Origin: Haloferula rosea
GTDB lineage: Bacteria > Verrucomicrobiota > Verrucomicrobiia > Verrucomicrobiales > Akkermansiaceae
Length of the DNA stretch: 64,000 bases
Assembly (NCBI RefSeq): GCF_016595525.1
Contig: NZ_JAENII010000005.1
Span: 124,001-188,000 of the forward strand
Direction of reading: 5' to 3'
Both the position numbers and the translations under genes were made by a program. Positions 41,046 through 63,761 of the stretch are shown here, piece by piece. Position 1 is the first letter of the stretch; every line of letters starts with the position of its first letter. The notes under the pieces are model-generated. The model made no database searches. It was not told where the DNA came from and worked only from the letters and a program-made list of their open reading frames with translations.

Positions 41046-41060
41046 ATGACGGGAATTCAT
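41046..41060. promoter_or_regulatory. One-mismatch copy of the nitrate-gene operator between moeA and moaA
   Basis: ATGACGGGAATTCAT matches ATGAA-N5-TTCAT at nine of ten fixed positions. It lies 66 bp upstream of moeA and 25 bp before the preferred moaA start. The distance to moeA equals that of the exact copies to their minus-strand genes. Confidence 0.45.
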
Positions 41061-44937: not shown

Positions 44938-44941
44938 GGGC

Positions 44942-46558: not shown

Positions 46559-46593
46559 TGGATGGGGCGGGCTGGGAGGGGACTCGGAGGAAT

Positions 46594-48348: not shown

Positions 48349-48441
48349 GGCAGTTGGCATAGGTTGGCATGATCATGAGCAGACCCTGTGCAATCCGGGG
48401 GAGAACCCCTCATGGTCTCCTCCAAAGGGATCATTCAAATC

Positions 48442-48456
48442 ATGAATTGGATTCAT
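48442..48456. promoter_or_regulatory. Exact 15-bp operator dyad upstream of nirA
   Basis: ATGAATTGGATTCAT fits ATGAA-N5-TTCAT exactly and has the T-N11-A form of LysR-type sites. It lies 94 bp before the nirA start and 36 bp beyond the nrtD stop. Identical fixed bases occur upstream of nrtB and lysR. Confidence 0.65.
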
Positions 48457-48480
48457 GGAGGTGTCTGAACTCCATGAATC
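48450..48480. repeat. Inverted repeat overlapping the nirA operator
   Basis: GATTCATGGAG and CTCCATGAATC form a perfect 11-bp stem, extendable by one G-C pair, around a 9-base loop. The left arm shares ATTCATG with the operator at 48442-48456, so three CATGAAT words lie in one 40-bp stretch and two alternative hairpins could form. No T tract follows, so it is not a standard terminator. Confidence 0.6.
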
Positions 48481-48491
48481 CCACTCTGGTT

Positions 48492-49382
48492 TTAGGCCGC
48501 TGAGTGGGCCTGGTTATCTTTCTTCTTCTCACCCAAGCCGCAGAAGCCCATGAGGTTCTTTCGGTTGTGGATGCGGGTCTCGCCCTTGAGGTGGGCGCGT
48601 TGTTCAAGGAAGGCAAGGAGGTGCTCGCGATAGGAGAAGAAAGCGGGGTCGGAGAAGACTTCCTTGCGGTCCCGCGGTCGGGGGAAATCAATTTCCATGA
48701 TTTCCCCCACGCCGGCTTTTGGTCCATTCGACATCATGACGCAGCGGTCGGCCATGAAGACGGCCTCATCGACGTCGTGGGTGACGATCATGGCGGTGAG
48801 TTTCTCGCGAGCGAGGATGTCGATGATGACATCCTGGAGTTCCATGCGGGTGAGTGAGTCGAGGCGGCCGAAGGGTTCGTCGAGCAGGAGCACCCGAGGT
48901 TGCAGGGCAATGGCGCGGGCGATGCCGACACGTTGTTGCATGCCGCCGGACATTTCCCGTGGGTATTTCTTCATGGCATCGCCAAGGCCAACCACGGAGA
49001 GGGCGTGCTCGACGATCTGCTTCTGGGTTGCCTTGTCGGCGTGAGGGTAGATGTTTTTCACGCCGAGCATGACATTGCCGTAGGCCGTCATCCAAGGCAT
49101 CAGGCAAGGTGCCTGGAAGACCACGGCGCGGTCCGGTCCGGGGCCGTCGATCTCCTTGTTGCCGACGATGATGCCGCCGTCGGAGATCTCGTTCAGGCCG
49201 GCGAGCATGGTGAGGATGGTGGACTTGCCGCATCCCGAGTGGCCGATCAGTGAGATGAACTCGCCCTGGCGGATGTTCAGATTGAAGTCCTCGACGACGC
49301 GGAAGTCTTCGCCATAGGGGTTCGGGTATTCTTTGACGAGGTTGGAGATCTCGACGAAGCGCGTGTTTTCGTGACTGCTCAT
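48492..49382 (-). CDS. nrtD: Nitrate ABC transporter ATPase, NrtD type
   Basis: A 296-residue ABC ATPase of the nitrate/sulfonate/taurine group. Walker A is [11 protein letters not shown], signature [14 protein letters not shown], Walker [11 protein letters not shown] with the D-loop RLDSLTR, and the switch histidine is in [13 protein letters not shown]. The segment [21 protein letters not shown] is characteristic of NrtC/NrtD. It would energise the NrtB permease together with the second ATPase gene 22 bp upstream. It is the last of the nrtBCD genes. Confidence 0.9.
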
Positions 49383-49404
49383 GGTGCTTTCGAGGCGGCT
49401 TGGT

Positions 49405-50310
49405 TCAAGCGGCCGATTTTGGTTTTCCCGGCTGAGAGTGGCGGTTCTTCAGGCGGGGTGTGGCGGTCGGAAGGGCGAAGTCCTTGGGGCGGATGTCGGG
49501 CATCGGGACGATGTCGTTCTTGCGCAGTCCCTTGGACTCTTCGTTGAGGTCCATCATGAACTGGGTGATCTCTGACTTGAGTCGCATGAACTCGGGGTGG
49601 TCATTGAGGGTGTGGCGGTCCCGCGGGCGTTCCATCCGAACTTCGAACTCATCGGCGAGCGTTGCCTTCGGTCCCATGGTCAGGGGGATGATCCGGTCGG
49701 CCATGAGCACGGCTTCGTCGACGTCATTGGTGATCATGACGACGGTGCGTTTGTCGGTTTCCCAGATGTTGAGAATTTGATCCTGGATCTCCGAGCGGGT
49801 CAGGGCGTCCAGCGCGGACAGGGGTTCATCAAGGAGGAGGATCTCCGGGTCGAGCGACAGGGTGCGGGCCAGCGAGGCGCGTTGGCGCATGCCGCCGGAC
49901 AACTCGTGGGGTTTCTTGTCCGGGGCGTGGTCGAGTTTCACCATCTTGATGTAGTGGTGAATCTTGTCGGCCTTCTCGCTTTTCGAGAGTTCCGGGAAGA
50001 CGCGGTCGACGGCGAGCTTGATGTTGTCGAAGACCGAGAGCCAGGGCAGCAGCGAGTAGTTCTGAAACATCAGTCCGCGGTCGGGGCCGGGGCCCTGCAT
50101 GGGCTTGCCGTTCATGGTCACGCTGCCCGAGCTCGGTGCCTGGAGACCTGCGAGCAGCGACATGAGGGTCGACTTGCCGGCACCGGAGAACCCGATGATG
50201 GCGACGAACTCCTTTTCCTTCACGGAGAGGTTGATGTTGCTCAGGACTTCGGTGCGGCTGGAGGCGGGGCCGAAGCCGACGTTGACGTCCTTCAATTCGA
50301 GAAATGACAT
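49405..50310 (-). CDS. nrtC: Nitrate ABC transporter ATPase, NrtC type without the solute-binding-like domain
   Basis: This 301-residue ABC ATPase has Walker [12 protein letters not shown], signature [15 protein letters not shown] and Walker [15 protein letters not shown]. At the switch position it has asparagine (MITNDVDEA) where histidine is standard, a feature of NrtC. Cyanobacterial NrtC carries a C-terminal NrtA-like regulatory domain; here only about 60 residues of low-complexity tail follow the ATPase domain. A free-standing NrtA-like protein without signal peptide is encoded at 61725-62756 and might replace that domain. The gene lies between nrtB and nrtD with short gaps. Confidence 0.88.
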
Positions 50311-50343
50311 GAGCTGGATGGGTTGGAGTTGGGCGGGAGTGGA

Positions 50344-51969
50344 TCAGACCCCGGCGGCACCGCCTTCAAAGGAGACGAGGCGTTGGAAGACGATCATGAT
50401 CCGGTCGAGCAGCAGGCCGATGAAGCCGACGATGAAGACGACGACGACCATCTTGGCGAACGAGTCCGAAGCTCCGTTGTTGAACTGGTCCCAAACGAAC
50501 TTGCCGATGCCTTCCGAAGAGGAAAGGAGCTCTGCGGCGATGAGGACCATCCAGCCGACACCGAGGGAGATGCGGAGGCCGGCAAAGATGAGCGGAAGGG
50601 CGGAAGGAATGACGATCTTGAAGAGGCGTGACCAGAAGCCGAGCTTGAGCACGCGTGCGACATTCATGTGGTCCTTGTCGATGCTGGCGACACCGAGCGC
50701 GGTATTGGCAAGCGTGGCCCACAGTGAGCAGAGGGCGACGGTGCAGGCGGATGCGATGAAGGCGGGGTTGATGTCATAGTTCTTGAGGAACCATGCGTCC
50801 TCCCACATCCAGTTCATGAGCGTGCTGTCTTCCGGGGCGGGCACGTAGGCGCTGGCGATGATCAGGCAGATCGGGAGCCAGACGATGGGGGACACGGGCT
50901 TGAAGATGGCGACGAATGGAGTCATCGCCGCCATGAAGGTGGAGTTCAGTCCGCAGAGGATGCCGATGGGAATGGCAATGGCGGAGCCGAGGAGGAAACC
51001 GGTGAAGACGCAGAGGATGCTGCGGCGGGTTTGATACCAGAGCGTCTTGGCTCCGGCATAGTCGGAGGTCTCGGTTTTGACGAGTCGGGCCTCATCCTTG
51101 GCGATGCCCCTGGCGGTCTTGAACGCGTCGGCACCGGTCAGGGTGGTCAGAGTGGCGAATTCCTCGCTCATCTCGACCTTGGCGCTGGCGACCTTCTCGC
51201 TGCGGTTGTCGCGGGTGAGCTGGTCGACCTTCTTCTGCAGGAACTGCAGTTCTTCAGCGGCCTGGGTTTGAGCGTAGAGGGCTTTGGCCACATCCTTCGA
51301 TTTCTCATCGCGGATGTCATCGATTTCCGATTTCAGGGCGCGGACCTTGTCCTTTTCCTCATCGGTCTTGCTTACGTCATCTTTGACGGCGGCGAGGAAG
51401 GCTTCGTAGGCAGCAGTGTCTCCGGGCGTAAGGGCTTCCGACATTTCAGCAAGTGCGGCCTTGCGCGACGCTTGGGCCTCCTTGAACGCGGCGTCGGTCT
51501 TCTTGCGCTCCTCATCGAGTGGGGCGATCCGGGCCTCAATCTTCTCGGCATAGGCGGCCTTCGTGGTTTTTACGGCTTCGGTGGTCGACTCCACGATGGG
51601 TTCAATGGCGGCGATGAGCTTCTCCGTTACCTCGAGTTCCGAGATTCGTTCGTTGCCGCTCATGAGGTAAGCTTCCTCCTTGAGGGCCTCGTATTCCGCG
51701 AAGGTGTCGATGGCGGAGTAGGCGAGGAGGGTTTCTTTCGGCGACGGGAGGCGGCCGGACTTGGTGTGGATGTTGTCGGACGCCTGGTTCCACGCGAAGA
51801 TGAAGATCAGGATCGCGATGATCGGAATGATGATCCACTGAACGATCTTCTTGATCTGGACGGCGGGTTCTTCGCCGTAGCAGAGACGGACGACCGGGGA
51901 GAGGAAGGTCAGTCCGGAGAAGTCGATCCCCTTGAGAATGGGGTACTTGATGGTTTTCAGGAAATTCAT
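50344..51969 (-). CDS. nrtB: Nitrate ABC transporter permease NrtB with large coiled-coil insertion
   Basis: This 541-residue permease is almost twice the usual 270-300. The first membrane helix is near residues 40-62 (IVQWIIIPIIAILIFIFAW). Residues about 75-300 are a charged, Ala/Glu/Lys-rich helical region with heptad character (AAYAEKIEARIAPLDEERKK, AEELQFLQKKVDQL). The conserved permease core follows from about 305: GFLLGSAIAIPIGILCG, FKPVSPIVWLPICLI, and the EAA-loop region ALPLIFAGLRISLGVGWM. The insertion should lie outside the cytoplasm if the N-terminus is inside. It is the first gene of nrtBCD; an operator copy lies 68 bp upstream. Confidence 0.88.
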   Translation of the reverse strand: MNFLKTIKYPILKGIDFSGLTFLSPVVRLCYGEEPAVQIKKIVQWIIIPIIAILIFIFAWNQASDNIHTKSGRLPSPKETLLAYSAIDTFAEYEALKEEAYLMSGNERISELEVTEKLIAAIEPIVESTTEAVKTTKAAYAEKIEARIAPLDEERKKTDAAFKEAQASRKAALAEMSEALTPGDTAAYEAFLAAVKDDVSKTDEEKDKVRALKSEIDDIRDEKSKDVAKALYAQTQAAEELQFLQKKVDQLTRDNRSEKVASAKVEMSEEFATLTTLTGADAFKTARGIAKDEARLVKTETSDYAGAKTLWYQTRRSILCVFTGFLLGSAIAIPIGILCGLNSTFMAAMTPFVAIFKPVSPIVWLPICLIIASAYVPAPEDSTLMNWMWEDAWFLKNYDINPAFIASACTVALCSLWATLANTALGVASIDKDHMNVARVLKLGFWSRLFKIVIPSALPLIFAGLRISLGVGWMVLIAAELLSSSEGIGKFVWDQFNNGASDSFAKMVVVVFIVGFIGLLLDRIMIVFQRLVSFEGGAAGV

Positions 51970-51998
51970 GGTCAGCTCAGGTCACCGTTTCTAAAGCG

Positions 51999-52064
51999 AT
52001 TCGATGACCAAAACTGGCCGGAACTCATCTTCATCGATGAAGATGATTCATGCATTCGATGACC
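51999..52064. repeat. Direct 11-bp repeats flanking a 22-bp palindrome in the nrtB upstream region
   Basis: ATTCGATGACC occurs at 51999-52009 and again at 52054-52064. Between them lies the perfect 22-bp palindrome TCATCTTCATC/GATGAAGATGA (52025-52046), which overlaps the operator dyad at 52037-52051. The arrangement suggests several protein-binding sites in phase. Confidence 0.75.
52037..52051. promoter_or_regulatory. Exact 15-bp operator dyad upstream of nrtB
   Basis: ATGAAGATGATTCAT fits ATGAA-N5-TTCAT exactly. It lies 68 bp before the nrtB start, a position typical of a LysR-family activation site if the transcript starts shortly before the gene. Confidence 0.65.
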
Positions 52065-52152
52065 TCAGCTGAATCGGCGGGCGATCTCGTCATCGTGGGC
52101 GATGACTGCGATCATTGTAAGTCCTTTGCAACCAGAGGGTTCCAGTGGTGCG

Positions 52153-52893
52153 CTAAGACGCAAAGACCTTTGTCAGCAGCTTGATCGCCGCGACCAGCAG
52201 CACGATGGCGAGTAGCCTGCGGACGGTGCTGGATGAGAAGTGGTAGCTGCCCATGCGCGATCCGGCGAATCCGCCGACGAGGGCGAAGGGCAGGAGCGAG
52301 GCAAGGTGCCACGGGATGGGTTGCCCGGAGACGCTGAAGCCGATCAGGCCGCTGAGCGAGTTTCCTGCGATGAAGACGATGGAGGTGGCGGCGGCGGTCT
52401 TCGGGCCGGCCCATCTGGCCATGAGGAGAAGGGGGGTGAGGAAGATTCCTCCTCCGGTCCCGGTCAGTCCGGCGAGCAAACCCAACAGTGCGCCGACGGG
52501 AAGGCTGATCTTGATGGAGGGGGGTGTTGGTTCTTTCTCTGTGGATCCTGACGGGAGGAGAAAACGGATGGCGGAGAAGGCGAGGACGACACCGAGGATG
52601 AGGCTGAGCGGCTTTTGAGGAATCGCGATGATGCCTCCAAGAAACGCGAAGGGGATGGCTACCACGAGGAAGGGCCAGGTGAGCTTCCAGTTGAGGTGCT
52701 TTCCCCGGATGAAATGCCACACACCGAACACCGAGACGCCGAGATTCATCATGAGTGCGGCGGGGCGGATGTCCGGAACCGCGATGCCTGCCAGGGTCAT
52801 GGCGGCGATGTAGCCGGAGGCTCCCGCGTGGCCGACACTCGAGTAGAGGAACGCGAGGGTGATGATGGCGGCATGCAGAATCCAGTCACTCAC
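52153..52893 (-). CDS. TauE/SafE-family membrane transporter
   Basis: A 246-residue protein with seven or eight membrane segments and the TauE repeats: YSSVGHAGASGYIAAMTLAG at the N-terminus and GLLAGLTGTGGGIFLTPLLLM in the second half. The family exports sulfite, sulfoacetate or other small anions. In this setting, between the nitrate permease and the transglutaminase cluster, a small-anion exporter for a nitrogen or sulfur oxyanion is conceivable, but no substrate can be named. It starts 12 bp after the transglutaminase gene on the same strand. Confidence 0.82.
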   Translation of the reverse strand: MSDWILHAAIITLAFLYSSVGHAGASGYIAAMTLAGIAVPDIRPAALMMNLGVSVFGVWHFIRGKHLNWKLTWPFLVVAIPFAFLGGIIAIPQKPLSLILGVVLAFSAIRFLLPSGSTEKEPTPPSIKISLPVGALLGLLAGLTGTGGGIFLTPLLLMARWAGPKTAAATSIVFIAGNSLSGLIGFSVSGQPIPWHLASLLPFALVGGFAGSRMGSYHFSSSTVRRLLAIVLLVAAIKLLTKVFAS

Positions 52894-52905
52894 GGCAACA
52901 GGCTG

Positions 52906-53778
52906 CTATTCGGGGGTCACGGTGACGCCGATTTCCAACTTCTGGGCGCCGCCTCCGTAGACCGTTCCCCGGATCGGGCAGATGTCGTGGTAGTCGCGAC
53001 CGCGGGCCACGCGGATGTGGTCGGTTTCAGGAATGGCGTCGTTGGTGGCGTCGAATTCCGCCCAGCCGAGCTCGGGGACGAACACCGCGATCCATGCATG
53101 CGAGGCGTCCGCACCGATCAAGCGGGGTTGTCCGGGAGGGGGTTCGGTGCGCAGGTAACCGGAGACGTAGCTGGCGGGCAGACCGATCGACCGGAGGCAA
53201 GAGATCTGGAAGTGGGCGAAGTCCTGGCAGACACCGGCGCGCTTCTCGAACACCTCCATGACCGGGGTGCTGACGGTGGTGGCGGATGGGTTGAACTCGA
53301 AGTCCGCGTGAATCCGGTGGGTCAAGTCGGTCACGCCCTCAAGGATGGGGGTTCCTGGACGGAACGACTTCAGGGTATAATCCGCGATGGTGGGATGCAC
53401 CGTGCAAAGCGGCGATGGCGAAACGAATTCGGCGGCTTCCAGTGAGCCAGGGTCGGAAGGTTGGAGCATCCGGTCGCGGACCGATTCCCAGGCCGGGGAA
53501 AGATTGAGACTCAGATCTCGTGGTGGCTCGATGAGGACCTTGCAGTAGCTGTCGACGACCAATTCTTGGTGGGGGGTGGTGAGCGAGAAGAAGTGGGTGA
53601 AGTTGTTGAAATAGTCGCTGTGATCGCTGAGGATGTCCGGTGCGGGATTCACCAGGATTCTCGATGATATCCGGCGCTGCAGCGGGGAGTCCGACGGGGT
53701 CAACCGGGCGAGGTGGTGGGAGTATGAGACGTGGTCTTCATACACGTATCGCGTCCGGTGATGAATGCTGTAGAGCAT
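52906..53778 (-). CDS. Transglutaminase-like cysteine protease family protein
   Basis: A 290-residue protein with the bacterial transglutaminase N-terminal beta domain (MLYSIHHRTRYVYEDHVSYSH, in parts) and a papain-like core. The catalytic triad is visible: Cys in AGVCQDFAHFQ, His in ASHAWIAVFVP and Asp in WAEFDATND. Such proteins occur next to circularly permuted ATP-grasp/alpha-E proteins and are predicted to cleave or ligate peptides made by them. It has no signal peptide and is probably cytoplasmic. It lies 9 bp after the ATP-grasp gene. Confidence 0.87.
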   Translation of the reverse strand: MLYSIHHRTRYVYEDHVSYSHHLARLTPSDSPLQRRISSRILVNPAPDILSDHSDYFNNFTHFFSLTTPHQELVVDSYCKVLIEPPRDLSLNLSPAWESVRDRMLQPSDPGSLEAAEFVSPSPLCTVHPTIADYTLKSFRPGTPILEGVTDLTHRIHADFEFNPSATTVSTPVMEVFEKRAGVCQDFAHFQISCLRSIGLPASYVSGYLRTEPPPGQPRLIGADASHAWIAVFVPELGWAEFDATNDAIPETDHIRVARGRDYHDICPIRGTVYGGGAQKLEIGVTVTPE

Positions 53779-53787
53779 GGGCGGAAA

Positions 53788-56325
53788 TCAGGAGCGGGTG
53801 AAGGTGACGTGCGTGAAGAACTCCCAGCCCAGTTGTTCGGCGACATGAGGCAGTTCCTTGCGGAGGCTCGCGACGAATCGATGGAGTTCCTTGATGGATG
53901 AAGCTTCCGACTTCTTGTCTCCGGACTGCAGGAACTCGGTTTCCAGATAGTGTTGGGCCTTCAGGATGGTCCGGTGGGGAGGCCGTCTCAGGGTGTTTTC
54001 CGACGAGCGGGGCAGTTGGTCGAAGTCGCGGTTGAGATCCGTAAGCTGATAGATCAGTCCGCGTGGGTTGGCCGGGTCGAACAGGATCAGGTCGAGGGCA
54101 GGAAGCGCCTGCGGGGCGCCTTGGTAGCGGAACCGGTAGGTCAGCGTGCAGTCGATCACCGAGAGGATGGCGTCCAAGGTGCTGGACGAGAGTTCTGGAT
54201 AGGTGGTCAGGGCATGGTCGACCATCGTGACGATCCACGAAGTGCGTTCGAGCTTCCTGCCGATATTGAGGAAATGCCAACCTTGGGTCCGCGTCAGGTT
54301 TTCCCGGCTGGTGCCGTTGAAGGCTGAGTGCAGCTGGATGGCCTGTTGGAGGGTGCTCCGGAACTCCGAGAGGGTCGTAGGAGGGGCATGGCGCCCGAGG
54401 TCATCGAGCAGGCAGATGATCCGCCATGTTTCATTCGACAGGCGTTCCCGGGACAGGGAGGCGAGATTCCGCAGTCGGTTGAGGTTGTCGGGCAGGGTGT
54501 CCAAGCCGCTGGAGGGTTCTCCGGGCCCGGAGTGGAAAAGCGGAACCAGGGCCTGGAAGATCTGTTCCCGATCGCTGGCCTGTTTGATGGCTTCGTGAAT
54601 CTCGGCGTTGAGGTAGTCGAGACTTTCGAGGGATTGCAGCAGGGCGTGGATGCCGGGGGGGAAGGTTTCGTCGGATTCGGCGATGAGCGACTGGACGATC
54701 TCCAGCAGGACCCGGGAGGCACACTCGGCCCGTTCCGAGTAGCGTCCGATCCACAGCATGTTGTCGGCCGCCCGGCTTGAAAGGATTTCCTGGCCGCGCC
54801 GGATGGTGAGACGCGATGGGAGGTTCGATGCTTGGAGGGCAGGTTTCGGATTCCTCGAAATCACCCACAGGTCCTTGCTGCACGAGCTTTCGTGAAGCGA
54901 CAGTCCGGGCAGGGTGTCCGCGGAGGCGGCGCTGCGGACCAGCCCACCGGGCATCACATGGTAGTCGGATCCGTCCGAAAAGAGGATCATCCGGATCGCC
55001 ACGGGTCGGGCTTCGAGGCCTTGGCCGTTCCAGCAGGGTGCGCAGGAGAATGGCATCTCCTGCTGGATGACGTGCCGACCCGGTTGGCGGGCGATCTCCT
55101 GATTGAGTTCCTCCAACTGCGTGGGGGTGAGGTCCCGGGTCAGACGGGGGCGGAAGAGGTTTCGCGTGAAGGCGCTCTTGACGACGGCAGCCGGGTCGCC
55201 CGGCCGGATCGGATCCGACGGTTGACCTGTCCACCGGGTGTTGATGGACGGGATGAGGAGTTCCTCGCCGAGCAGGTCGCGCGAGATCTGCGGCAGGTAG
55301 GGAAGGAATGCGGGAGCCTCGGCGATGCCGGTGCCGGGCGGGTTGATCACCACGACCGAACCGGAGCGCATCGCCTGGAAGAGGCCGGGGATGCCATGGT
55401 TTCCCTGGCTGGGTGACTCGAGCGGGTCCGCTTCGTTCTCTGCCACCCTGCGGATGAGCACGTGGACGGGGCGGAGTCCGCTGACGGTCTTCAGGTAGAG
55501 CCTGTCGTTGCGGACCGTGAGCTCTTCGCCGATGGCCAGATTGATGCCGAGGTATCTGGAGAGGTAGGCATCCTCGAAGTAGGTCGGGTCGCCGGTGCCG
55601 GGCGAGAGCATGACGACATGCGGCGACTCGATGGCGGCGGGGGCCCTCTCGAACAAGGATTCCCGCAGCTTCTGGAAGTACGATGCAAGCCGTAGAAGGT
55701 GGAGCCGTTTGGTGGCCCCGGGAAAGACGTTGTTCAGGATGATCCGGTTCTCCAGCGCGAATCCCGCACCATTCGGGGTCTCGGTCCGGTCGGCGACGAC
55801 TGTCCAGGAGCCGTCGGGGCTCCTCGCCAGATCGAGGGCGTAGAGGGAGAGCAGCGGCCCATTCGTCTCGGGGAGATTGCGGAGCGAGTGCTGGTAGTTC
55901 GGTTGGGAAAAGAGAAGAGCGGGCGGAATGGTTCCGTTCTGCAGCAGCTTGCGTGGGCCGTAGCAGTCGCGAAGAATCCCGTCCCAGAGTCGCGCGCGCT
56001 GGATGGCTGCGGTGCTCAGGCTTTCCCACTCGGCCTCGTCGAGGGCCAGCGGGATGGGGTCGAGCGCCCACCGTCGATCGCTGCTCGATTCACTCGAGAG
56101 CAGGTTGTAGGCGATACCATTCTCGTGAAGGAGGTCCTGACCACGCTTCCACGCGGTTTGGATGCCTTCGGATCCGAGGGGATTGAGTTCCGAGAAGACG
56201 GACTTCCAGGCACTTGAGTGGATCTCATCGAACCGGCCGGCCATGGGACGGTAGGATGAGAGCAGGGCAGCCGCGGGGTTCGGCGGCGGGCCGGATGACT
56301 GGGTCTGGCGCATTTCCGGGTACAT
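53788..56325 (-). CDS. Circularly permuted ATP-grasp ligase fused to alpha-E domain
   Basis: This is an 845-residue fusion. Residues 1-500 are a circularly permuted ATP-grasp type 2 domain: RYLGINLAIGEELTVRNDRLYL with LRPVHVLIRRV, VINPPGTGIAEAPAFLPYLP, and VIQQEMPFSCAPCW. Residues from about 530 to the end are the all-helical alpha-E domain, starting LSSRAADNMLWIGRYSERAE. In most genomes the two are adjacent genes or a fusion, linked to transglutaminase genes, and are predicted to synthesise or tag small peptides. The product is unknown. It lies between the two transglutaminase genes of the trio with short gaps. Confidence 0.88.
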   Translation of the reverse strand: MYPEMRQTQSSGPPPNPAAALLSSYRPMAGRFDEIHSSAWKSVFSELNPLGSEGIQTAWKRGQDLLHENGIAYNLLSSESSSDRRWALDPIPLALDEAEWESLSTAAIQRARLWDGILRDCYGPRKLLQNGTIPPALLFSQPNYQHSLRNLPETNGPLLSLYALDLARSPDGSWTVVADRTETPNGAGFALENRIILNNVFPGATKRLHLLRLASYFQKLRESLFERAPAAIESPHVVMLSPGTGDPTYFEDAYLSRYLGINLAIGEELTVRNDRLYLKTVSGLRPVHVLIRRVAENEADPLESPSQGNHGIPGLFQAMRSGSVVVINPPGTGIAEAPAFLPYLPQISRDLLGEELLIPSINTRWTGQPSDPIRPGDPAAVVKSAFTRNLFRPRLTRDLTPTQLEELNQEIARQPGRHVIQQEMPFSCAPCWNGQGLEARPVAIRMILFSDGSDYHVMPGGLVRSAASADTLPGLSLHESSCSKDLWVISRNPKPALQASNLPSRLTIRRGQEILSSRAADNMLWIGRYSERAECASRVLLEIVQSLIAESDETFPPGIHALLQSLESLDYLNAEIHEAIKQASDREQIFQALVPLFHSGPGEPSSGLDTLPDNLNRLRNLASLSRERLSNETWRIICLLDDLGRHAPPTTLSEFRSTLQQAIQLHSAFNGTSRENLTRTQGWHFLNIGRKLERTSWIVTMVDHALTTYPELSSSTLDAILSVIDCTLTYRFRYQGAPQALPALDLILFDPANPRGLIYQLTDLNRDFDQLPRSSENTLRRPPHRTILKAQHYLETEFLQSGDKKSEASSIKELHRFVASLRKELPHVAEQLGWEFFTHVTFTRS

Positions 56326-56368
56326 CGATGTGCAATGACTCCCGTAGAGGTCCCGGGGCGGCGGGACT

Positions 56369-59300
56369 CTAGTGGCTGAATCGCTGCAGGTCTAGGGTCA
56401 TCGGGTAGTCTTTGCTGGGAACCGCAGGCAGGGGTTCGATGCGTCCCGGCGTGCGGTTCAGAACGGTGAATCGTGAACGACGACGGCTCTCGGCGACGAA
56501 GGCGTTCAATGGGAAGTCCTCGAAGGATCGGCCGCCCGGGTGGGTGACGTGGTATTGGCAGCCGCCGACGGATCGCTGGTTCCATGAATCGACGAGGTCG
56601 AAGGTGAGTGGCGAGTCGATCGGCTTGGTCGGGTGGAGGGCGGAGTAGGGTGCCCATGCCCGGAAGCGGATGCCGGCGACAAACTCGCCCTGCCTGCCGG
56701 TCGGATGAAGCGGGACGCTGTGCCCGTTGCAGCACAGGATGTGGCGGGAATCGGTCAGGCCCTGCAGCTTGACCTGCACCCGCTCGACGGATGAGTCGAC
56801 GTAGCGGGATGTTCCCCCGCTTCCCTGTTCCTCTCCGAGGACGTGCCATGGCTCGATGGCCTGCCGGAGTTCGAGGTGGAGGTTGCGGGTCTCCAGCTCG
56901 CCGATCAGGGGGAAGCGGAATTCATGGTGGGGCTCGAACCAGGCCGGGTCGAATGCCATGCCGTGTTCGTTGAGGTCGGTGATGATCTCGTTGAGGTCAT
57001 CCTTGATGAAATGGGGAAGCATCCAGCGGTCGTGGATGGAGGTGCCCCAGCGGACGAGCTTCTGGGTGCACGGTTCATCCCAGAATCGCGCGATGAGTCC
57101 CCGGATGAGCAGTTGTTGCGCGAGCGACATGTCGGCGTGGGGCGGCATTTCGAATCCGCGCAATTCGACGAGACCGAGACGACCGGTCGAGCTGTCGGGA
57201 CTGAACAGCTTGTCGATGCACAGCTCCACCCGGTGGGTGTTCCCGGTGAGGTCGACCATGTGGTTGCGCAGGACGCGGTCGATGATCCACTGCGTGTTCT
57301 CACGGGTGGTGTCGCCCTTCGGCACTGCATCGAGGGCGGTCTCCAGTTCGTAGAGCGTCTCGTTGCGGCTTTCATCGAGGCGGGGTGCCTGTGAGGTGGG
57401 GCCGATGAAGAGTCCGGAAAAGAGGTAGGAGAGGGAAGGGTGGTTGTTGAAGGTGCGGATCAGGGATGGGAGGAGATCGGGACGACGGAGGAAGGGGGAC
57501 TCGAGCGGAGTCGAGCCGCCGACCACGATGTGGTTTCCGCCGCCGGTGCCGGAGTGGCGTCCATCCTGCATGAACTTCTCCGTGCCGAGTCCGATGCTAC
57601 GGGCTTCCTCGTAGATGGCGCGGGTGCGGGAGGTGAGTTGGTTCCAATCCGATGATGGGTGGATGTTCACTTCGATGACGCCGGGGTCCGGTGTCACTGA
57701 GAACGAGGCGATCCGTGGGTCGGACGGTGGCTTGTAGCCCTCGATGCGGACCGGGGTGCCGAGGGACTTGGCGGATTCCTCGATGGCGGAGATGAGTTCC
57801 AGATAGTGGTCCGCCTTGACCAGGGGTGGCATGAAGACGTGGAGTCTTCCGTCGCGTGGTTCGACGCAGAGGCCGGTGCGGATCCGGCCTGAGGCGGATT
57901 CGCCGGGCTGCGGCTCGGCCAGGGCGTCGAGCTGTTGCTTGGAAATCGGGCGGTCACCGGGGCGGTCTCCGGCCTCGTGACCGGGGCTCTGTCCGCGAAC
58001 CTGGGTGGAGTGGGTGCCCGTGCGACGGTGGGCCCCGGGTGGAAGGATGCGGTTTTCCGGGAATGGCTCGCGCGGGATGGCGGGATCGTAGGGTTCGAGG
58101 ATGGGCTGGTCGGAGCGCTCGGCCCATGGGAGCCCGTCGATCGGAAGCCGGTAGCCCATCGGGTGGTTTCCGGGCGCCAGATAGAACTCCTCGTCGCGGG
58201 TGAACCACGGGCCGGTGAGCCATTCGTCCGGATGCGTTCCACGGGCGAGCGGAAGGAGGTAGCCGACCGCGGTGCCCAGCCCTTGATCGAAGACCTTGGC
58301 GATGGTTTTCCGTTCGAGTTCGTCATCGAGCCTCGGGTCGTCGACACTGACATTCATCGGCAGGCGACGTTCCTTCCACATGTAGTAGAAGATGTCTTCA
58401 TAGGCGGCCCGGATGTGGTCGGTTGGGAGATCGAGGTTGGCCGCGAGTTCCTTGGCGAAGGCCTCCGCTTCGGCGGCGCCGAAGCCATAGTTCACCCGGT
58501 GGTTGGCAATGAGGTCGAGGTCGTTCCAGATGGGAATACCATCCGTCCGCCAGTAGGATGAATACGCCCAGCGAGGGAGGGGTTCACCCGGATACCATTT
58601 TCCCTGGCCGTGATGGAGAAAACCTCCAGGGGAGAACTTGTGGTGCAGTCTTCTGAGGAGTTGGTCGGCGTAGAGTTCTTTGGTCGGCCCCAGGGCATCG
58701 GTGTTCCATTCATCCGCATCCATGTCGGTGGCGGAAACGAAGGTGGGTTCACCTCCCATGGTGAGGCGGATGTCCGACTTGCGCAGGCGTTTGTCGATGG
58801 AGTGGCCGAGTCGGTCGATTTCCTCGGTCTGCTCTTCCGTGTAGGGCAGGGTGACGCGCGGGGTCTCCCGCACGCGGCGGACATGCATGTCGAACTCGAA
58901 CTTGGTCTTGATCTTCTCCTGGGTCATCAGCGAGCCGCTGACCGGGGCGGAGTTCGAGTAGTGGGCGGTGGCGCTCAGTGGGATATGGCCTTCGCCGGTG
59001 AGGAGACCGGAGGTGGGGTCGAGCCCGACCCATCCCGCGCCGGGCAGATAGACCTCGGCCCAGGCATGCAGGTCGGTAAAGTCGTCGGACGGGCCTTCCG
59101 GACCTTCATCGATGGGTTTCTGGTCGGCTTTGAGCTGGATCAGGTATCCCGAGCAGAAGCGGGCGGCGATGCCGAAGCTGCGCATCACCTGGACCAGCAA
59201 CCAAGCGGAGTCGCGGCACGACCCGGAGCCCAGCTCGAGGGTCTGTTCCGGTGACTGGACGCCCGGCTCCATGCGGATCTTGTAGCTCACGGCGTTGCCG

Positions 59301-59758
59301 ACGGCCTGGTTGATGGCGACGAGAAAGTCATTCGTCGGCATCTCCTGCTTGGCGGGCAGGGATTCGAAGAATTTCCGGTAGCGTGGACCGTTGACCGTCT
59401 TGCGGAAGAATGGGGCGAGGTCGTCCTCGATCTCCTCGGGATAGGTGAAGGGCACCTTCTCGGCGTAGTCCTCGAGGAAGAAATCGAAGGGGTTGATCGT
59501 GGCAAGGTCGGCGATGAGGTCGACCTCGAACGAGAACTCGGTCACGGGCTCGGGGAAGACGATCCTTGCAAGGAAGTTGCCGTGGGGGTCCTGCTGCCAG
59601 TTGATGAAGTGCTTCTCCGGCGTGATCTTCAGCGAGTAGGCGGGTACGGCAGTGCGCGAGTGGGCCGCGGGCCGGAGCCGGATCGTTTGCGGGCCGAGCT
59701 GGACGGGCTTGGCGTATTGATAGGAGGTCCGGTGATGAAGCGAGCAGTGGATGGCCAT
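56369..59758 (-). CDS. Transglutaminase-DUF2126 protein
   Basis: This is a 1129-residue protein. Residues 1-290 are a transglutaminase domain: Cys in ELGSGSCRDSAWLLVQVMR, His in DLHAWAEVYLPGAG and Asp in WVGLDPTSG. Residues 310-1129 are DUF2126, beginning RLTMGGEPTFVSATDMDADE and including ELRGFEMPPHADMSLAQQLL and SGTGGGNHIVVGG. DUF2126 resembles amidoligase/glutamine-synthetase-like ATP-using folds according to published domain analysis. It is the first gene of the trio with the ATP-grasp/alpha-E and second transglutaminase genes. AGGAG lies about 13 bases before the ATG, inside a small inverted repeat. Confidence 0.9.
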   Translation of the reverse strand: MAIHCSLHHRTSYQYAKPVQLGPQTIRLRPAAHSRTAVPAYSLKITPEKHFINWQQDPHGNFLARIVFPEPVTEFSFEVDLIADLATINPFDFFLEDYAEKVPFTYPEEIEDDLAPFFRKTVNGPRYRKFFESLPAKQEMPTNDFLVAINQAVGNAVSYKIRMEPGVQSPEQTLELGSGSCRDSAWLLVQVMRSFGIAARFCSGYLIQLKADQKPIDEGPEGPSDDFTDLHAWAEVYLPGAGWVGLDPTSGLLTGEGHIPLSATAHYSNSAPVSGSLMTQEKIKTKFEFDMHVRRVRETPRVTLPYTEEQTEEIDRLGHSIDKRLRKSDIRLTMGGEPTFVSATDMDADEWNTDALGPTKELYADQLLRRLHHKFSPGGFLHHGQGKWYPGEPLPRWAYSSYWRTDGIPIWNDLDLIANHRVNYGFGAAEAEAFAKELAANLDLPTDHIRAAYEDIFYYMWKERRLPMNVSVDDPRLDDELERKTIAKVFDQGLGTAVGYLLPLARGTHPDEWLTGPWFTRDEEFYLAPGNHPMGYRLPIDGLPWAERSDQPILEPYDPAIPREPFPENRILPPGAHRRTGTHSTQVRGQSPGHEAGDRPGDRPISKQQLDALAEPQPGESASGRIRTGLCVEPRDGRLHVFMPPLVKADHYLELISAIEESAKSLGTPVRIEGYKPPSDPRIASFSVTPDPGVIEVNIHPSSDWNQLTSRTRAIYEEARSIGLGTEKFMQDGRHSGTGGGNHIVVGGSTPLESPFLRRPDLLPSLIRTFNNHPSLSYLFSGLFIGPTSQAPRLDESRNETLYELETALDAVPKGDTTRENTQWIIDRVLRNHMVDLTGNTHRVELCIDKLFSPDSSTGRLGLVELRGFEMPPHADMSLAQQLLIRGLIARFWDEPCTQKLVRWGTSIHDRWMLPHFIKDDLNEIITDLNEHGMAFDPAWFEPHHEFRFPLIGELETRNLHLELRQAIEPWHVLGEEQGSGGTSRYVDSSVERVQVKLQGLTDSRHILCCNGHSVPLHPTGRQGEFVAGIRFRAWAPYSALHPTKPIDSPLTFDLVDSWNQRSVGGCQYHVTHPGGRSFEDFPLNAFVAESRRRSRFTVLNRTPGRIEPLPAVPSKDYPMTLDLQRFSH

Positions 59759-59920
59759 GGGAGTGCGTCACTCCTAAGCTGGATTCGGGCCGAAATAGCA
59801 AGAAGCAGTATGGAAAAGTCTTCGTCCGGGTTCGTTGATCCGAGTGTGATGAGTCGAGTTGATGCCAGTAAGATCGTTGGTATGAGTTGGGCTCATTCTG
59901 GAGGGAGTGCGACCGCCGTG

Positions 59921-59957
59921 GACGCAAAACGGTCCGACCAGGAGCTGGTCGGACCGT
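59921..59957 (-). terminator. Intrinsic terminator of nrtA
   Basis: ACGGTCCGACCA and TGGTCGGACCGT form a perfect 12-bp stem with a 5-base loop. On the minus strand it is followed by GTTTTGCG. It lies 33 bp after the nrtA stop and separates nrtA from the transglutaminase cluster. Confidence 0.85.
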
Positions 59958-59989
59958 GAAAGGATGGGGGGCGATCCCGGATCGAGGAA

Positions 59990-61333
59990 TCACTCCGGAT
60001 CCTTGTTCCCGATCTTGTGGCTGTTCAGATACTTGATCGGCTCCTTGCCGTCGTATTCCACGCCATCGATGAAGTCCTTGGTCGCCGGTTTGAAGCCGTC
60101 GGTCTCCCATGGGATGTCTTCCTTTTGGATCTTTTCTTCCTCAAGGAGCATCTTGGCGGCCGCGAGGTAGATGTCGGGCTTGTAGACTTCCTTGGCGGTT
60201 TCGAGATACCAGTCCTTGCTCTTGGCCTCGGTGATCTGGCCCCAGCGGCGCATTTGGGTCAGGAACCAGATGCCGTCGGAGTACCAGGGGTAGGTGCACT
60301 GGTGCTTAAAGAAGACGTTGAAGTCAGGCATGGTCCGCTTGTCGGTTTTCTGGAAAAGGAAGTAGCCGGTCATCGAGTTCTTGATGACGTCATAGTCGGC
60401 TCCAACGTAGTCCGGGCGGGAGAGGATGCGTGCGGCTTCCTCGCGGTTGACGAGTTCGCCGGCCTCATTGGTTTCGTCGAGCCATTGGCCGGCGAGGATG
60501 AGTGCTTTGGTGACGGCGAGGTAGGTCTGGGGGTTCTCGTCCGCCCATTCCTTGCTCACGCCGAAGACCTTTTCGGGGTTGTTCTTCCAGATGTCGTAGT
60601 TGGTGGTCACCGGGACACCGATGCCCTTGGCGACGGCCTGTTGGTTCCATGGTTCACCCACGCAGTAGCCCTGGATGTTGCCGGCTTCGAGAGTGGCGGG
60701 CATCATGGGTGGAGGGGTGACGGAGAGCTCGACTTCGGCATCGGTACGGCCACCGATGTCGGTCTTGGTATACATGCCGGGATGGATGCCAGCGGCAGCA
60801 AGCCAGTAGCGGATCTCGTAGTTATGGGTCGAGGTGGGGAACACCATGCCCATTTGAAGTTTCTCGCCGTCCTCGAGTTTCTCCTCGACGATGGGCTTCA
60901 GTGAGTCGGCAGTGATTGGATGGGGAGGCGTCGGGGAGTCGAGCTTCGCGTCGTTCTCCTGCATCTGGCTCCAGATGTCATTGGATACGGTGATGCCGTT
61001 GCCGTTCAGGTCCATGGTGAAGGCCGTGATGATGTGGGCCTTGGTCCCGAATCCGATGGTGGCGGCGATGGGCTGCCCGGAGAGCATGTGGGCGCCATCG
61101 AGTTCGCCGGAGATGACATTGTCGAGCAGGGTCTTCCAGTTGGGCTGGGCGATGACCTCGACCTGCAGGCCTTCATCCTCGAAGAAGCCTTTCTCCTTGG
61201 CGATGACGATGGGGGCGCAGTCGGTAAGCTTGATGAAGCCGAACTTCAGTTCGTCCTTTTCGACATCGAGTTGGTCGGCGTGGCAGAGGCCGACGGCGAC
61301 GCTGGTGGCAAGTATGGTGTGCTTGAGTTGCAT
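59990..61333 (-). CDS. nrtA: Nitrate ABC transporter substrate-binding protein
   Basis: NrtA captures nitrate or nitrite in the periplasm for NrtBCD. The 447-residue protein has a Sec-type signal ([19 protein letters not shown]), then [66 protein letters not shown] and [18 protein letters not shown], all landmarks of the NrtA/CmpA family. ATG 61333 is chosen because it starts the signal peptide. The gene is separated from nrtBCD by the TauE and transglutaminase genes and has its own terminator. A stretched operator-like dyad lies 67 bp upstream. Confidence 0.93.
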
Positions 61334-61724
61334 GGTTGGATGTGAGTGTTCGTTCCGTCTCCCATCGAGCGGATGGCATGCCATGTCTTGTCCTGGCTCA
61401 TGAACGACGAAGCTGGATTTTCATCGCCCGGGTGAATGCTGCTAATGGTAGCGAAAGCAACTGGTTCCCAGTGTGGCGCGAGCGGGTGGATCCGGTCCGT
61501 TGAGAGGATGAATGGTCGGATTGCCCGGTGGTCATGAGTGAATGGCATCGACTGTTGCGCTCGTGATCCGTCCTGCTCATGGCACGGGTGCGGCTCTCCT
61601 GTCGAAACGCTGGGGTAAGAGATGCCGTCCCACTCGCGGGCCTGGGGATCTGCGACGGAGATAGCCTACGTGTTCCGCTTGTCCCGCCGGTTTCTTACTG
61701 GCTTGAGTGCCTGAATCGGCCGCC
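61334..61724. other. 391-bp spacer between nrtA and the NasS-like gene
   Basis: No protein gene or known RNA is recognisable here. It should contain the nrtA promoter. Three signals stand out: the 12-bp palindrome ATGGCATGCCAT (61373-61384), the stretched dyad ATGAA-N15-TTCAT (61400-61424), and the everted pair TTCAT/GTGAA just after it. I tried to recognise a riboswitch or tRNA in the GC-rich part (61560-61720) and could not. Confidence 0.45.
61400..61424. promoter_or_regulatory. Operator-like dyad with ten extra bases upstream of nrtA
   Basis: ATGAA and TTCAT are separated by 15 bases instead of 5, exactly one helical turn more than in the three exact copies. It starts 67 bp before nrtA, the same distance as for nrtB and moeA. 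This is suggestive but weaker than the exact copies. Confidence 0.35.
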
Positions 61725-62756
61725 TCAGGCCGGGAGGAGCATCTTTTCCGAAGCGCGGAAGAGGTCCTGCCTGTAAAGGCGGGTGAGGGGAGGTGAGGTG
61801 GTCTCCGGAAGGAGTCCGGTGCCGCGCATGCCGGCAAGGAACCAGGATGCCTTTTCGGCGGTGGGTTGATTCAGGTCGTTGCCGTAGAAGAGGTGGAAGT
61901 CGCTGGCGTCGAGGTTGCCCCTGCCACTGACGAACGAGGGACCGAGGCTATTGAAAAGGGTGGCTTCCGAACAGCCGGTGTATTCCGGGCGGGCGAGGAT
62001 GGACACCAGTTCATCGCGGAAATCCGGTTGCTGGCAGAGACGGCAGGCGTGCAGGAGTGCGGCGCCCATGGCGATCACGTCGTCCCGCTGTTCGTTCACC
62101 AGTTGTCCATCGACGATGAGGATTTTTTCGGGGTGGCCTGTCGACAGTTCCGAGGACGTCGCGGGGCACCAGCCGTAGTTCTTGAGGATCGATTCTGAAT
62201 TCCATGGCTCGCCGACGCAGTAGCCATCGATATGGCTCGCGGCCAGACTGGCGGGCATCAGCGGTGGCGGGAGGAAGACGATCTCCACATCGCGGCCCGG
62301 CTCGACGCCATGGCGGCGTAGCCATGAGTGGAGGAGGATGTGGTGCGAGGAGTAGCGGTGGGCGGCGGCGAGGGTGAGCGGTCGTTGCTTCTTCCACCGG
62401 TGTTTGATGAAGGGGGCGAGGCCGGATCCGTCTCCGATGCTGTCTGCAGGCAGATCATTTGACAGGGTGATCGCATTCCCGTGGGCGCTCATGACCAATG
62501 GTACCGAGATCTCCCGGCGGAGTTTGGTGAGACCCATGGAGAGGTAAAAGGCGATGCCGGCGATGGACTGGGCGGCGTCGAGTTCGCCATAGAAGAGCAT
62601 GTCCCGAATGGTTGCCCATCCAGGTTGTTTGGAGAGGGTGACGGATACCCCGTAGGAGCGGAAGAGTCCGAGTTCCTTGGCTACGGCAACCGGCGCACAA
62701 TCATTGAGAGGAACGAATCCAAGTCGAATGGATGAGCGCGAGTCGGTATGTGCCAT
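61725..62756 (-). CDS. nasS: NrtA-family protein without signal peptide, NasS-like nitrate sensor candidate
   Basis: A 343-residue protein of the NrtA/CmpA/NasS family: RLGFVPLNDCAPVAVAKELG at the N-terminus, FYGELDAAQSIAGIAFYLS, SAHGNAITLSND and [20 protein letters not shown]. It lacks an export signal and is 100 residues shorter than NrtA, as is NasS, the cytosolic nitrate/nitrite sensor that holds the antiterminator NasT. No NasT (ANTAR) gene is present in the window. Its divergent neighbour is a LysR regulator, and the shared 87-bp spacer has an exact operator. It could instead act on the NrtC ATPase, which lacks its usual NrtA-like domain. Confidence 0.75.
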   Translation of the reverse strand: MAHTDSRSSIRLGFVPLNDCAPVAVAKELGLFRSYGVSVTLSKQPGWATIRDMLFYGELDAAQSIAGIAFYLSMGLTKLRREISVPLVMSAHGNAITLSNDLPADSIGDGSGLAPFIKHRWKKQRPLTLAAAHRYSSHHILLHSWLRRHGVEPGRDVEIVFLPPPLMPASLAASHIDGYCVGEPWNSESILKNYGWCPATSSELSTGHPEKILIVDGQLVNEQRDDVIAMGAALLHACRLCQQPDFRDELVSILARPEYTGCSEATLFNSLGPSFVSGRGNLDASDFHLFYGNDLNQPTAEKASWFLAGMRGTGLLPETTSPPLTRLYRQDLFRASEKMLLPA

Positions 62757-62830
62757 GAAGAAGTCGTAAGCGGAAAGAGTGCCAAGTCCGGGGTATTGGC
62801 ATGTTCTCTGCTCGGTTGTGGCAGAATTAG

Positions 62831-62845
62831 ATGAATATCGTTCAT
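62831..62845. promoter_or_regulatory. Exact 15-bp operator dyad overlapping the lysR start codon
   Basis: ATGAATATCGTTCAT fits ATGAA-N5-TTCAT and T-N11-A. Its last bases are the first bases of the lysR ATG, so binding would block that gene, while it lies 75 bp upstream of the divergent NasS-like gene. This is the classical layout of an autoregulated LysR gene. Confidence 0.7.
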
Positions 62846-63761
62846 GAGTGAAGTCCTTCCCGATTTGAGACAGTTGCGGGCCTTTGTGGCTGTGGCGGAC
62901 GAGGGAAGCTTCACGCTTGCGGCCAAGAAGCTGTTTCTGACCCAGTCGGCGATCAGTCACTCGATGCGCGCGCTCGAGGACAGTCTCGGTTGCCGTCTTC
63001 TCTCCCGCCTTGGGAAGAAGACCGTCCTTACGGAAGAGGGGGCGGTGCTGTTGCGCCGATGCCGATCGATCCTCGCTGAGCTCGAGCAGGTGGGACGCGA
63101 GCTGGATGGCTTGAAGCGCTGGGGGCAAAGCCGAATTCGGATCGGGGCTCCCCATTCCTTGTGCCAATTCTTGCTCCCGACGGTTCTCCGTGAGTTTCGC
63201 GATTGCTTTCCCCGCTGTGAGCCGTCGATCGAGGCGGGCGACACGGACGCCTTGCTGGAACGGCTCGACGATCATGAGTTGGACGTCGTCCTGGGGCTTC
63301 AGCCCAGTGTGCCGCGGGAGAAGGGAGCTCGCGCCTTGTTCCGCGATCGGATGACCTTCGTGGTGCCACCGGTTCATCCCTGGGCGGAAACCGGGGTTCC
63401 TGACACGAATGACTTCGAGCATACGCAGTTCATCATCTATGCGCGGGCGACGGGCACCCATCGTCTGGTGGAGAACCACTTCGCCGAGCTCGGGATCCGG
63501 CCCAAGGCTCCTCTGGTGCTGGGGGACATGGAAGCGATCAAGGAGATGTCCAAGATCGGGATCGGTGTGGGGATCGTCGCCGATTGGGTGGTGAAGCGCG
63601 AGGTGGATGAAGGAACGCTGGTCGCCTTGCCGGCTTCGGAAGGTCACGAGATCGAACGGGAGTGGGCGATTTTCTGGAACGACGAGCGTCCTTTGAGCCT
63701 CGTCGAGGAGACGTTCGCGGGGATTTCGGGGATGGTGGGTGAAGCGCTGGCCGGGAAGTAG
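62844..63761 (+). CDS. LysR-family transcriptional regulator, candidate nitrate-assimilation regulator
   Basis: This 305-residue LysR protein has the N-terminal winged helix-turn-helix (LRAFVAVADEGSFTLAAKKL, then TQSAISHSMRALEDSLGCRL), a linker helix to about residue 90, and a periplasmic-binding-protein-like effector domain (IRIGAPHSLCQFLLPTVLREF onward). The effector site may bind nitrate, nitrite or a nitrogen metabolite. It is divergent from the NasS-like gene. The dyad in the shared spacer recurs exactly upstream of nrtB and nirA, so I infer that it controls these operons and perhaps moeA/moaA and nrtA. The start at 62844 is the first ATG of the domain. Confidence 0.9.
   Translation: MSEVLPDLRQLRAFVAVADEGSFTLAAKKLFLTQSAISHSMRALEDSLGCRLLSRLGKKTVLTEEGAVLLRRCRSILAELEQVGRELDGLKRWGQSRIRIGAPHSLCQFLLPTVLREFRDCFPRCEPSIEAGDTDALLERLDDHELDVVLGLQPSVPREKGARALFRDRMTFVVPPVHPWAETGVPDTNDFEHTQFIIYARATGTHRLVENHFAELGIRPKAPLVLGDMEAIKEMSKIGIGVGIVADWVVKREVDEGTLVALPASEGHEIEREWAIFWNDERPLSLVEETFAGISGMVGEALAGK

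Follow-up and report, generated by a model that had tools for sequence, protein, structure and literature searches.

Which protein reads the short palindrome that recurs in front of the nitrate genes of Haloferula rosea, and what kind of promoter does it serve? The question arises from a stretch of 64,000 nucleotides of this genome (contig NZ_JAENII010000005.1, positions 124,001 to 188,000 of the forward strand; hereafter the window), which carries lysR, a divergent nasS-like gene, nrtA, nrtB, nrtC, nrtD, nirA, nitrate reductase genes, moaA, moeA and a mobA-like gene. A first-pass annotation of the window had noticed a dyad of 15 base pairs (bp), ATGAA-N5-TTCAT (hereafter the exact box), upstream of several of these genes, and had proposed one LysR regulon covering nitrate uptake, nitrate reduction and the supply of molybdenum cofactor. 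The main feature, which that annotation lacks, is a set of predicted promoters of the sigma-54 type lying in fixed helical phase with the box, together with a porin gene as a further putative member of the regulon. The box and its phasing with sigma-54-type elements are shown below; as the best explanation, and a fairly probable one, we propose that the LysR-type regulator encoded beside these promoters reads the box and gives them their nitrate specificity.

Exact boxes are present, as first reported, at 48442-48456 upstream of nirA (ATGAATTGGATTCAT), at 52037-52051 upstream of nrtB (ATGAAGATGATTCAT) and at 62831-62845 in the spacer between nasS and lysR (ATGAATATCGTTCAT), all three unstranded; the spacer box and the lysR start codon overlap by two bases, the last two of the former being the first two of the latter. 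The copy with one mismatch at 41046-41060 and the stretched copy at 61400-61424 (ATGAA-N15-TTCAT) were likewise found in place, and the distances to the gene starts that had been given hold, provided that nirA starts at 48348 and nrtA at 61333. The claimed rarity also stands: for ten fixed bases about 0.06 copies are expected per 64 kilobases (kb), against 3 seen. The whole genome (4,682,580 bases in 69 contigs) holds 4 exact boxes, 3 of them inside 14.4 kb of the nitrate cluster. When one mismatch is allowed, the window has 4 matches (shuffles have a mean of 1.09, and 6 of 100 reach 4) and the genome 78 places, against 19 for the pattern read backward as a control; these weak statistics put the 41046 copy at chance level.

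A refined box learned from the relatives, ATGAR-N5-YTCAT (A or G at base 5, T or C at base 11), occurs 7 times in the genome against once for its control: upstream of nirA and nrtB, at 59882, between nasS and lysR, before a porin-like gene, at the amtB start and at the start of a hypothetical gene. The porin-like gene lies 9.2 kb outside the window, has a weak match to Alginate_exp, below cut-off, and shows a sigma-54-type element at an offset of 65 bp in its promoter. Three copies were set aside as probably due to chance, as none has a strong in-phase element of this type: the one at 59882-59896 before a DUF2126 gene, which also lacks the half-site at +22 described below, the one at the likely start codon of the ammonium transporter gene amtB (C68:26710; L056 1501-1515) and the one at the likely start codon of the hypothetical gene (C23:4446). 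As for nrtA, the stretched copy is better read as a degenerate box at 61410-61424 on the minus strand (ATGAAAATCCAGCTT), which has three mismatches to the refined form, takes its ATGAA from one arm of the stretched copy and lies 42 bp from a sigma-54-type element.

Relatives were collected with the LysR protein: a scan of genome contigs gave 38 loci, mostly from Akkermansiaceae and Verrucomicrobiaceae and including Luteolibacter and Haloferula strains, and a search of 244 family genomes found it at E 1e-60 or better in 96, our genome included. We studied 80 of the 95 other lysR genomes, nasS being divergent from lysR in 50 of the 80; upstream counts leave out genes whose match starts past residue 80 or that lie too close to a contig end. 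At the lysR start of the 50 nasS-linked loci, the box is exact in 35 and has one mismatch in 11 (46/50 together), its first base falling between -10 and -21 relative to the aligned start of lysR; it is absent in four (L127, L130, L142, L163). Upstream of nirA it is exact in 10/22 and present with at most one mismatch in 21/22, upstream of nrtA in 12/31 and 24/31 respectively, and upstream of nrtB exact in 4/7. Genes internal to the units have no box upstream (nrtD 0/26, nasA 0/12, nasB 0/20), apart from nrtC, with an exact box in 1/26 (L139, where nrtC lies 5.5 kb from nrtB) and at most one mismatch in 2/26. A scan of 103 promoters that was blind to the motif returned ATGA-N7-TCAT as the top 4-bp dyad, in 71/103 (nasS 43/51, nirA 15/21, nrtA 13/31), when 200 shuffles gave 0.23 on average and never more than 2. 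Within the genus of the window, the sole genome without a lysR hit (G093) has 2 box copies versus 5 to 15 in the others. Across the genome and its relatives, the box marks the heads of units, at nasS/lysR, nirA, nrtA and nrtB, rather than their internal genes. The view of the first-pass annotation that a LysR-form box, T-N11-A and of the MetR type, marks the promoters of nitrate uptake and reduction is supported by this comparison; its proposed single regulon is supported in part, for these promoters and not for the cofactor genes (moaA 0/6, moeA 0/15 exact).

Alignment of the promoters on the box brought out a second fixed element, TGGCA-N8-GC[TA], of the sigma-54 type (-24/-12). Its offset is given as the distance in bp from the box start to its GG, and the counts, being conditional on the box, cover only promoters with a box of at most one mismatch plus the window's own. 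Among nasS promoters, the GG of TGG-N10-GC has offset 64 in 26/47, 63 in 7 and 65 in 6; among nrtA promoters it has offset 65 in 16/24 and 64 in 6; in nrtB promoters it falls at 64-66 in 4/5, the fifth being the window's own, at 42. The -24 part is weaker in nirA promoters, where the best-scoring position is 64 or 65 in 19/21. The element carries 1.7-2.0 bits at TGGCA and GCT in nasS and 1.8-2.0 bits except at the A (0.7) in nrtA, both figures being partly circular since the alignment was made on the best-scoring match. No -10-like element is conserved after it in the aligned promoters. RpoN is encoded in 17 of the 18 genomes of the genus, ours included, and the remaining genome is 72% complete. 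An extra half-site, ATGA at +22 from the box start, is found in 22/24 nrtA and 14/21 nirA promoters with a box and is not conserved at nasS or nrtB; it is possibly an activation half-site. Separately, 41/51 nasS promoters have another dyad, GCCAA-N10-TTGGC, that lies across the -24 element (window 62769-62800); among the promoters scanned, its CCAA and GCCA cores are confined to those of nasS.

The spacing between the two elements was followed in 112 loci that had been selected solely by lysR or nirA (1,084,854 bases), in segments of 140 bp. After a refined box, TGGCA-N8-GC[TA] stands at offsets 32 (4 cases), 43-45 (4), 54-55 (2), 62-66 (61) and 91 (2), and at no other offset within these segments, with 0.026 cases expected per offset; the classes are steps of about one helical turn. 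When 8 porin loci fetched for their composite match (L246-L253) are included, identical segments being collapsed, the class at 62-66 rises to 66 and that at 91 to 3, and each of the three at 91 is a second box, 26 bp above one that is in phase at 65. In a small control, six scrambled dyads had 24 strand occurrences and 1 promoter within 20-80 bp, against 234 occurrences and 76 promoters for the box. The shorter spacings come from other genera and other genes: offset 32 to nirA of G018 and nirB of G009, G025 and G012, offsets 43-45 to nirA of G137, G150, G115 and G094 (with a relaxed box, also to four porins), and offsets 54-55 to nirA of G001 and G050.

A genome-wide search for the composite of box and element gave a match in 72 of the 96 lysR genomes and in 20 of the 148 without a lysR hit at E 1e-60; these genome counts cover all matches, and offsets are those of the 150 matches listed. 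Among the matches listed, the offsets in lysR genomes are phased at a period of 10.5 bp (R 0.84, n 130), also when restricted to offsets up to 61 (R 0.63, n 26, Rayleigh p about 3e-5), and those in genomes without a lysR hit are not clearly phased (R 0.26, n 20), all these statistics treating genomes as independent. G093 has no composite. The targets are nasS, nrtA, nrtB, nirA, the porin, NarK-type transporters (in G108 of our own genus, in G012 and in G007, the last just under the NCBIfam cut-off) and, in other genera, NirB (above cut-off in G025, a fragment below it in G009, and identified in G012 from its resemblance to these two). Relatives have homologous porins that carry the composite too. 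Two observations on the porin promoters may be added: three of them have tandem boxes 26 bp apart, and several of those in L246-L253 show, by eye, a GTGCG...CGCAC-like dyad between the box and the -24 element.

In the window itself, we scored candidate elements out of 16. The nasS promoter has a sigma-54-type -24/-12 element at 62769-62784 on the minus strand (TGGCACTCTTTCCGCT; offset 62, score 13), and nrtA has one at 61368-61383, minus strand (TGGCATGCCATCCGCT; offset 42 from the degenerate box, score 13). Before nirA lie a sigma-54-like element at 48378-48393, minus strand (TTGCACAGGGTCTGCT; offset 64, score 12), and the extra half-site ATGA at 48431-48434, minus strand, 22 bp from the box start. 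The nrtB element at 51995-52010, minus strand (TGGTCATCGAATCGCT; offset 42), is weak, with a score of 11 that is common in the background. A 10-bp inverted repeat (ATTCATGGAG/CTCCATGAAT) at 48451-48479, between the nrtD stop and nirA, has half-sites in common with the box and could be a hairpin or an additional operator.

The candidate reader of the box is the product of lysR (62844-63761, plus strand), a LysR-type regulator with HTH_1 and LysR_substrate domains and the recognition helix TQSAISHS. The box, of T-N11-A form, is identical to the MetR-type LysR box of E. coli, the site being given in the accessible parts of two sources as ATGAA-n5-TTCAT, 15 bp (PMC5002191), and as TGAANNNNNTTCA (PMC13393422). 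The 80 orthologues, whose overall identity is 40-84%, keep the helix TQSAxSHS at 95% or above; that of E. coli MetR is TQSALSHQ, and two paralogues among the five HTH_1 proteins of the genome have TQSALSRQ and SQPTISEQ, L272 and L274 being left out of the comparison for their wrong reading frame. The NCBIfam matches listed for the window's LysR protein (25 of 56) are LysR families other than MetR, none above its cut-off. Five further proteins of the genome match Sigma54_activat strongly, an RtcR and four receiver-AAA+ proteins, the latter with AtoC and NtrC as best NCBIfam matches, below cut-off; no relatives of the five were found in the 80 lysR loci (tblastn, E 1e-20). One NtrC-like receiver-AAA+ protein (L171 1063-2445; C11:22287) has no Fis-type DNA-binding domain (HTH_8) according to Pfam, a stretch at its end that by eye resembles a degenerate one, and neighbour genes without a nitrogen link.

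A sigma-54 promoter depends on an AAA+ activator, and regulators of the LysR type are generally assigned to sigma-70. The composite hints at a non-standard pairing of LysR with sigma-54. We propose the following mechanism. The LysR-type regulator would recognise ATGAR-N5-YTCAT, next to which it is encoded, and the NasS-like protein, divergent from lysR, would probably be its sensor or modulator; the constant position of nasS opposite lysR suggests that the NasS-like protein feeds the LysR protein. One regulon would serve nitrate entry and assimilation, made up of the porin, nrtA, nrtB, nasS, nirA and the reductase genes that follow nirA, and its promoters would be sigma-54 promoters in which the box is kept on one helix face relative to the -24/-12 element. 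Because a LysR-type protein lacks an AAA+ ATPase, we infer an unlinked enhancer-binding protein of the NtrC type, which would supply hydrolysis of adenosine triphosphate (ATP). In the presence of nitrate, LysR, with its centre some 50 to 83 bp before the transcription start, would recruit this partner, position it or license it, and through the box at the lysR start it would repress lysR itself; rigid phase at this distance would fit contact with the promoter complex better than a looping enhancer. More tentatively, and with confidence short of even, LysR may be the nitrate-specific DNA-bound arm of a sigma-54 machine whose AAA+ activator has no enhancer of its own there. This would be a split activator, LysR giving the address and the signal and another protein, for which C11:22287 is a candidate, the ATP hydrolysis.

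Several readings compete for the same observations. The one that comes closest has LysR bind the box but act purely as a repressor: an enhancer-binding protein would by itself switch on the sigma-54 promoters, and LysR would be the anti-activator. Nac at its own promoter is a precedent, the box at the lysR start suits repression, and phasing would matter for the blocking of a loop too; LysR proteins moreover bend DNA, according to the accessible portion of PMC8407307. This reading seems unlikely to us, as no second conserved element appears, among the matches listed, in the 60 bp above the box of nirA and nrtA promoters, where the activator should bind, and the ATGA at +22 resembles an activation site. 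Slightly less likely still, the box would belong to an unlinked AAA+ enhancer-binding protein instead of LysR, as its upstream activating sequence, and the box's overlap with lysR would be due to the nasS promoter in a short spacer. Such a protein would meet the need of sigma-54 promoters for an ATPase, for which the genome has five strong candidates, and the composite does occur in some genomes without a lysR hit; against it stand the T-N11-A form of the MetR box and the match of the LysR helix with that of MetR, the company of composite and lysR across genomes, the lack of relatives of the five activators in the 80 lysR loci, and a phasing at -50 to -83 that is unusually tight for looping enhancers.

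That TGGCA-N8-GC[TA] belongs to a sigma-70 promoter or is some other binding site, in an ordinary LysR regulon, we regard as improbable: its overlap with GCCAA-N10-TTGGC in 41/51 nasS promoters and the weak -24 part at nirA speak for such a reading, and the GG-N10-GC spacing, the high information at TGGCA and GCT (from the partly circular alignment), the lack of a conserved -10 element after it, the presence of RpoN and the recurrence of the element at nasS, nrtA, nrtB, porin and narK genes speak against it. Least credible, to a degree that makes it nearly negligible, is an origin of the motif by chance or through shared ancestry of intergenic DNA. Orthologous promoters are indeed related and the window's one-mismatch count is near chance, but the enrichment is far over shuffles, the box precedes unrelated genes and its distances shift by whole turns between genera. 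Chance is refuted for the three exact copies and stands for 41046.

Our preferred reading, of a LysR box phased with sigma-54-type promoters, has points against it which should be gathered here. Taking the best score in each of 3000 random window segments as background, 51 segments reach at least 13, 290 at least 12 and 1088 at least 11, so that the window alone is no proof of sigma-54 and the case rests on the relatives. The right half of the nrtA box is lost in the window. A scan for 5-bp dyads ranks GCCAA-N10-TTGGC first (41) and ATGAA-N5-TTCAT second (21), and the box alone is unspecific, with at least one copy in all 244 family genomes. With the relaxed box ATGA-N7-TCAT, single matches also fall at offsets 31, 53, 56 and 112, and the p-values overstate the case since orthologous promoters are not independent. 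The composite is missing in 24 of the 96 lysR genomes, although the pattern is also blind to offset 32 and to weak -24 parts. It occurs in three nirA genomes without a lysR hit (G001, G041, G095), of which G001 is 72% and G095 83% complete; in the genus shared by G041 and G095, several lysR relatives have scores close to the threshold. In our own genome, two composite searches gave four matches each, of which two each are nasS and the porin and two lie outside the known targets. No enhancer-binding protein could be tied to the box promoters among the five own candidates, and we know of no case of a LysR-type protein as a direct partner of sigma-54. The other composite matches of the genome are G000 C33:181113, C55:252287, C1:176373 and C69:40708, two of them in unusual or relaxed form.

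The molybdenum-cofactor branch of the first-pass proposal is rejected, the exact box being missing from the related promoters and the 41046 copy having no strong in-phase sigma-54-type element. None of six moaA upstream regions in relatives has a box; among 15 for moeA, a set in which five are only 35-40% identical and possibly paralogues, none has an exact box and one has it with at most one mismatch (L264). The 41046 copy can itself be read as a possible moaA start codon, ATG ACG GGA ATT CAT, and its best element scores are 10 (offset 63, minus strand) and 12 (offset 36, plus strand).

The remaining genes of the cluster lie on the minus strand: the nasS-like gene for a nitrate-binding protein (NMT1_2) at 61725-62756; nrtA, for the binding protein of a nitrate ATP-binding cassette (ABC) transporter, at 59990-61333, its start taken at Met-Gln-Leu-Lys; nrtB, permease, at 50344-51969; nrtC and nrtD, ATPases, at 49405-50310 and 48492-49382; and nirA, ferredoxin-nitrite reductase, at 46594-48360, with a possible start at 48348. 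Behind nirA are a nitrate reductase Fe-S/membrane subunit (44942-46714) and nasA, an assimilatory nitrate reductase below the NCBIfam cut-off (42745-45096), both reading frames being probably over-extended at the 5' end. Between nrtA and nrtB, 52153-59758 holds amidoligase/transglutaminase-type genes (DUF2126, circularly permuted ATP-grasp with Alpha-E, Transglut_core) and a TauE-type gene; in relatives, nrtA lies at most 230 bp from nrtB in 6 of the 7 with a matched nrtB start. A domain search found no ANTAR/NasT protein in our genome, and ANTAR is above cut-off in 3/244 family genomes, so the window's NasS-like protein probably does not act via NasT; leader control by NasS-NasT was dropped for want of an ANTAR protein in this genome.

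How does this arrangement compare with known systems? MetR of E. coli is like it in the same 15-bp dyad ATGAA-n5-TTCAT, as far as the consulted excerpts go, in its helix (TQSALSH(Q) versus TQSAISH(S) in the window) and in the divergent arrangement, there of metR and metE; unlike it, MetR controls methionine genes, and the box described here precedes nitrate genes whose promoters are of the sigma-54 type and varies at its inner half-site base (R/Y). MetR targets use sigma-70 promoters. Cyanobacterial NtcB, found among 33 PDB sequence matches of the window's LysR, is likewise a LysR-type regulator, of the nir operon. Its partner is the CAP-type NtcA, whereas here the partner promoter is of the sigma-54 type, and to our knowledge cyanobacteria are without sigma-54. 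That NtcB acts with this second activator is stated in the title of a work cited in PMC3898017. NasS-NasT antitermination shares a NasS-like nitrate-binding protein in the cluster and differs in its NasT, no ANTAR/NasT protein being found in our genome, where nasS is divergent from lysR instead. NasR, too, is an antitermination input of Proteobacterial nitrate genes.

A further comparison is with NtrC plus sigma-54 in Proteobacteria, where nitrate transport and nitrite reductase genes are under sigma-54 (PMC12316311, as excerpted); the pathway input there is NasT/NasR antitermination, and here it would be a LysR-type box in helical phase. That survey of sigma-54 regulons, in its accessible part, names nitrate transport and NasT in Pseudomonadota and does not mention LysR. 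In Borrelia, the sigma-54 promoter of rpoS requires, besides Rrp2, another regulator, BosR, which is no enhancer-binding protein (PMC3037356); BosR is a Fur/PerR homologue, unlike the LysR-type box in fixed phase across a whole regulon seen here. The available text of PMC8407307 places the usual LysR site at about -65 and describes RpoN and several LysR proteins on one promoter, and the consulted part of PMC3404531 gives further context. In the open-access literature we found no account of a LysR-type regulator with sigma-54 at the nitrate genes of this group. A box that keeps its phase family-wide through changes of one, two and three helical turns suggests that the two systems are directly and structurally coupled, and it would give the Akkermansiaceae/Verrucomicrobiaceae group, in which NasT is rare, a nitrate regulon.

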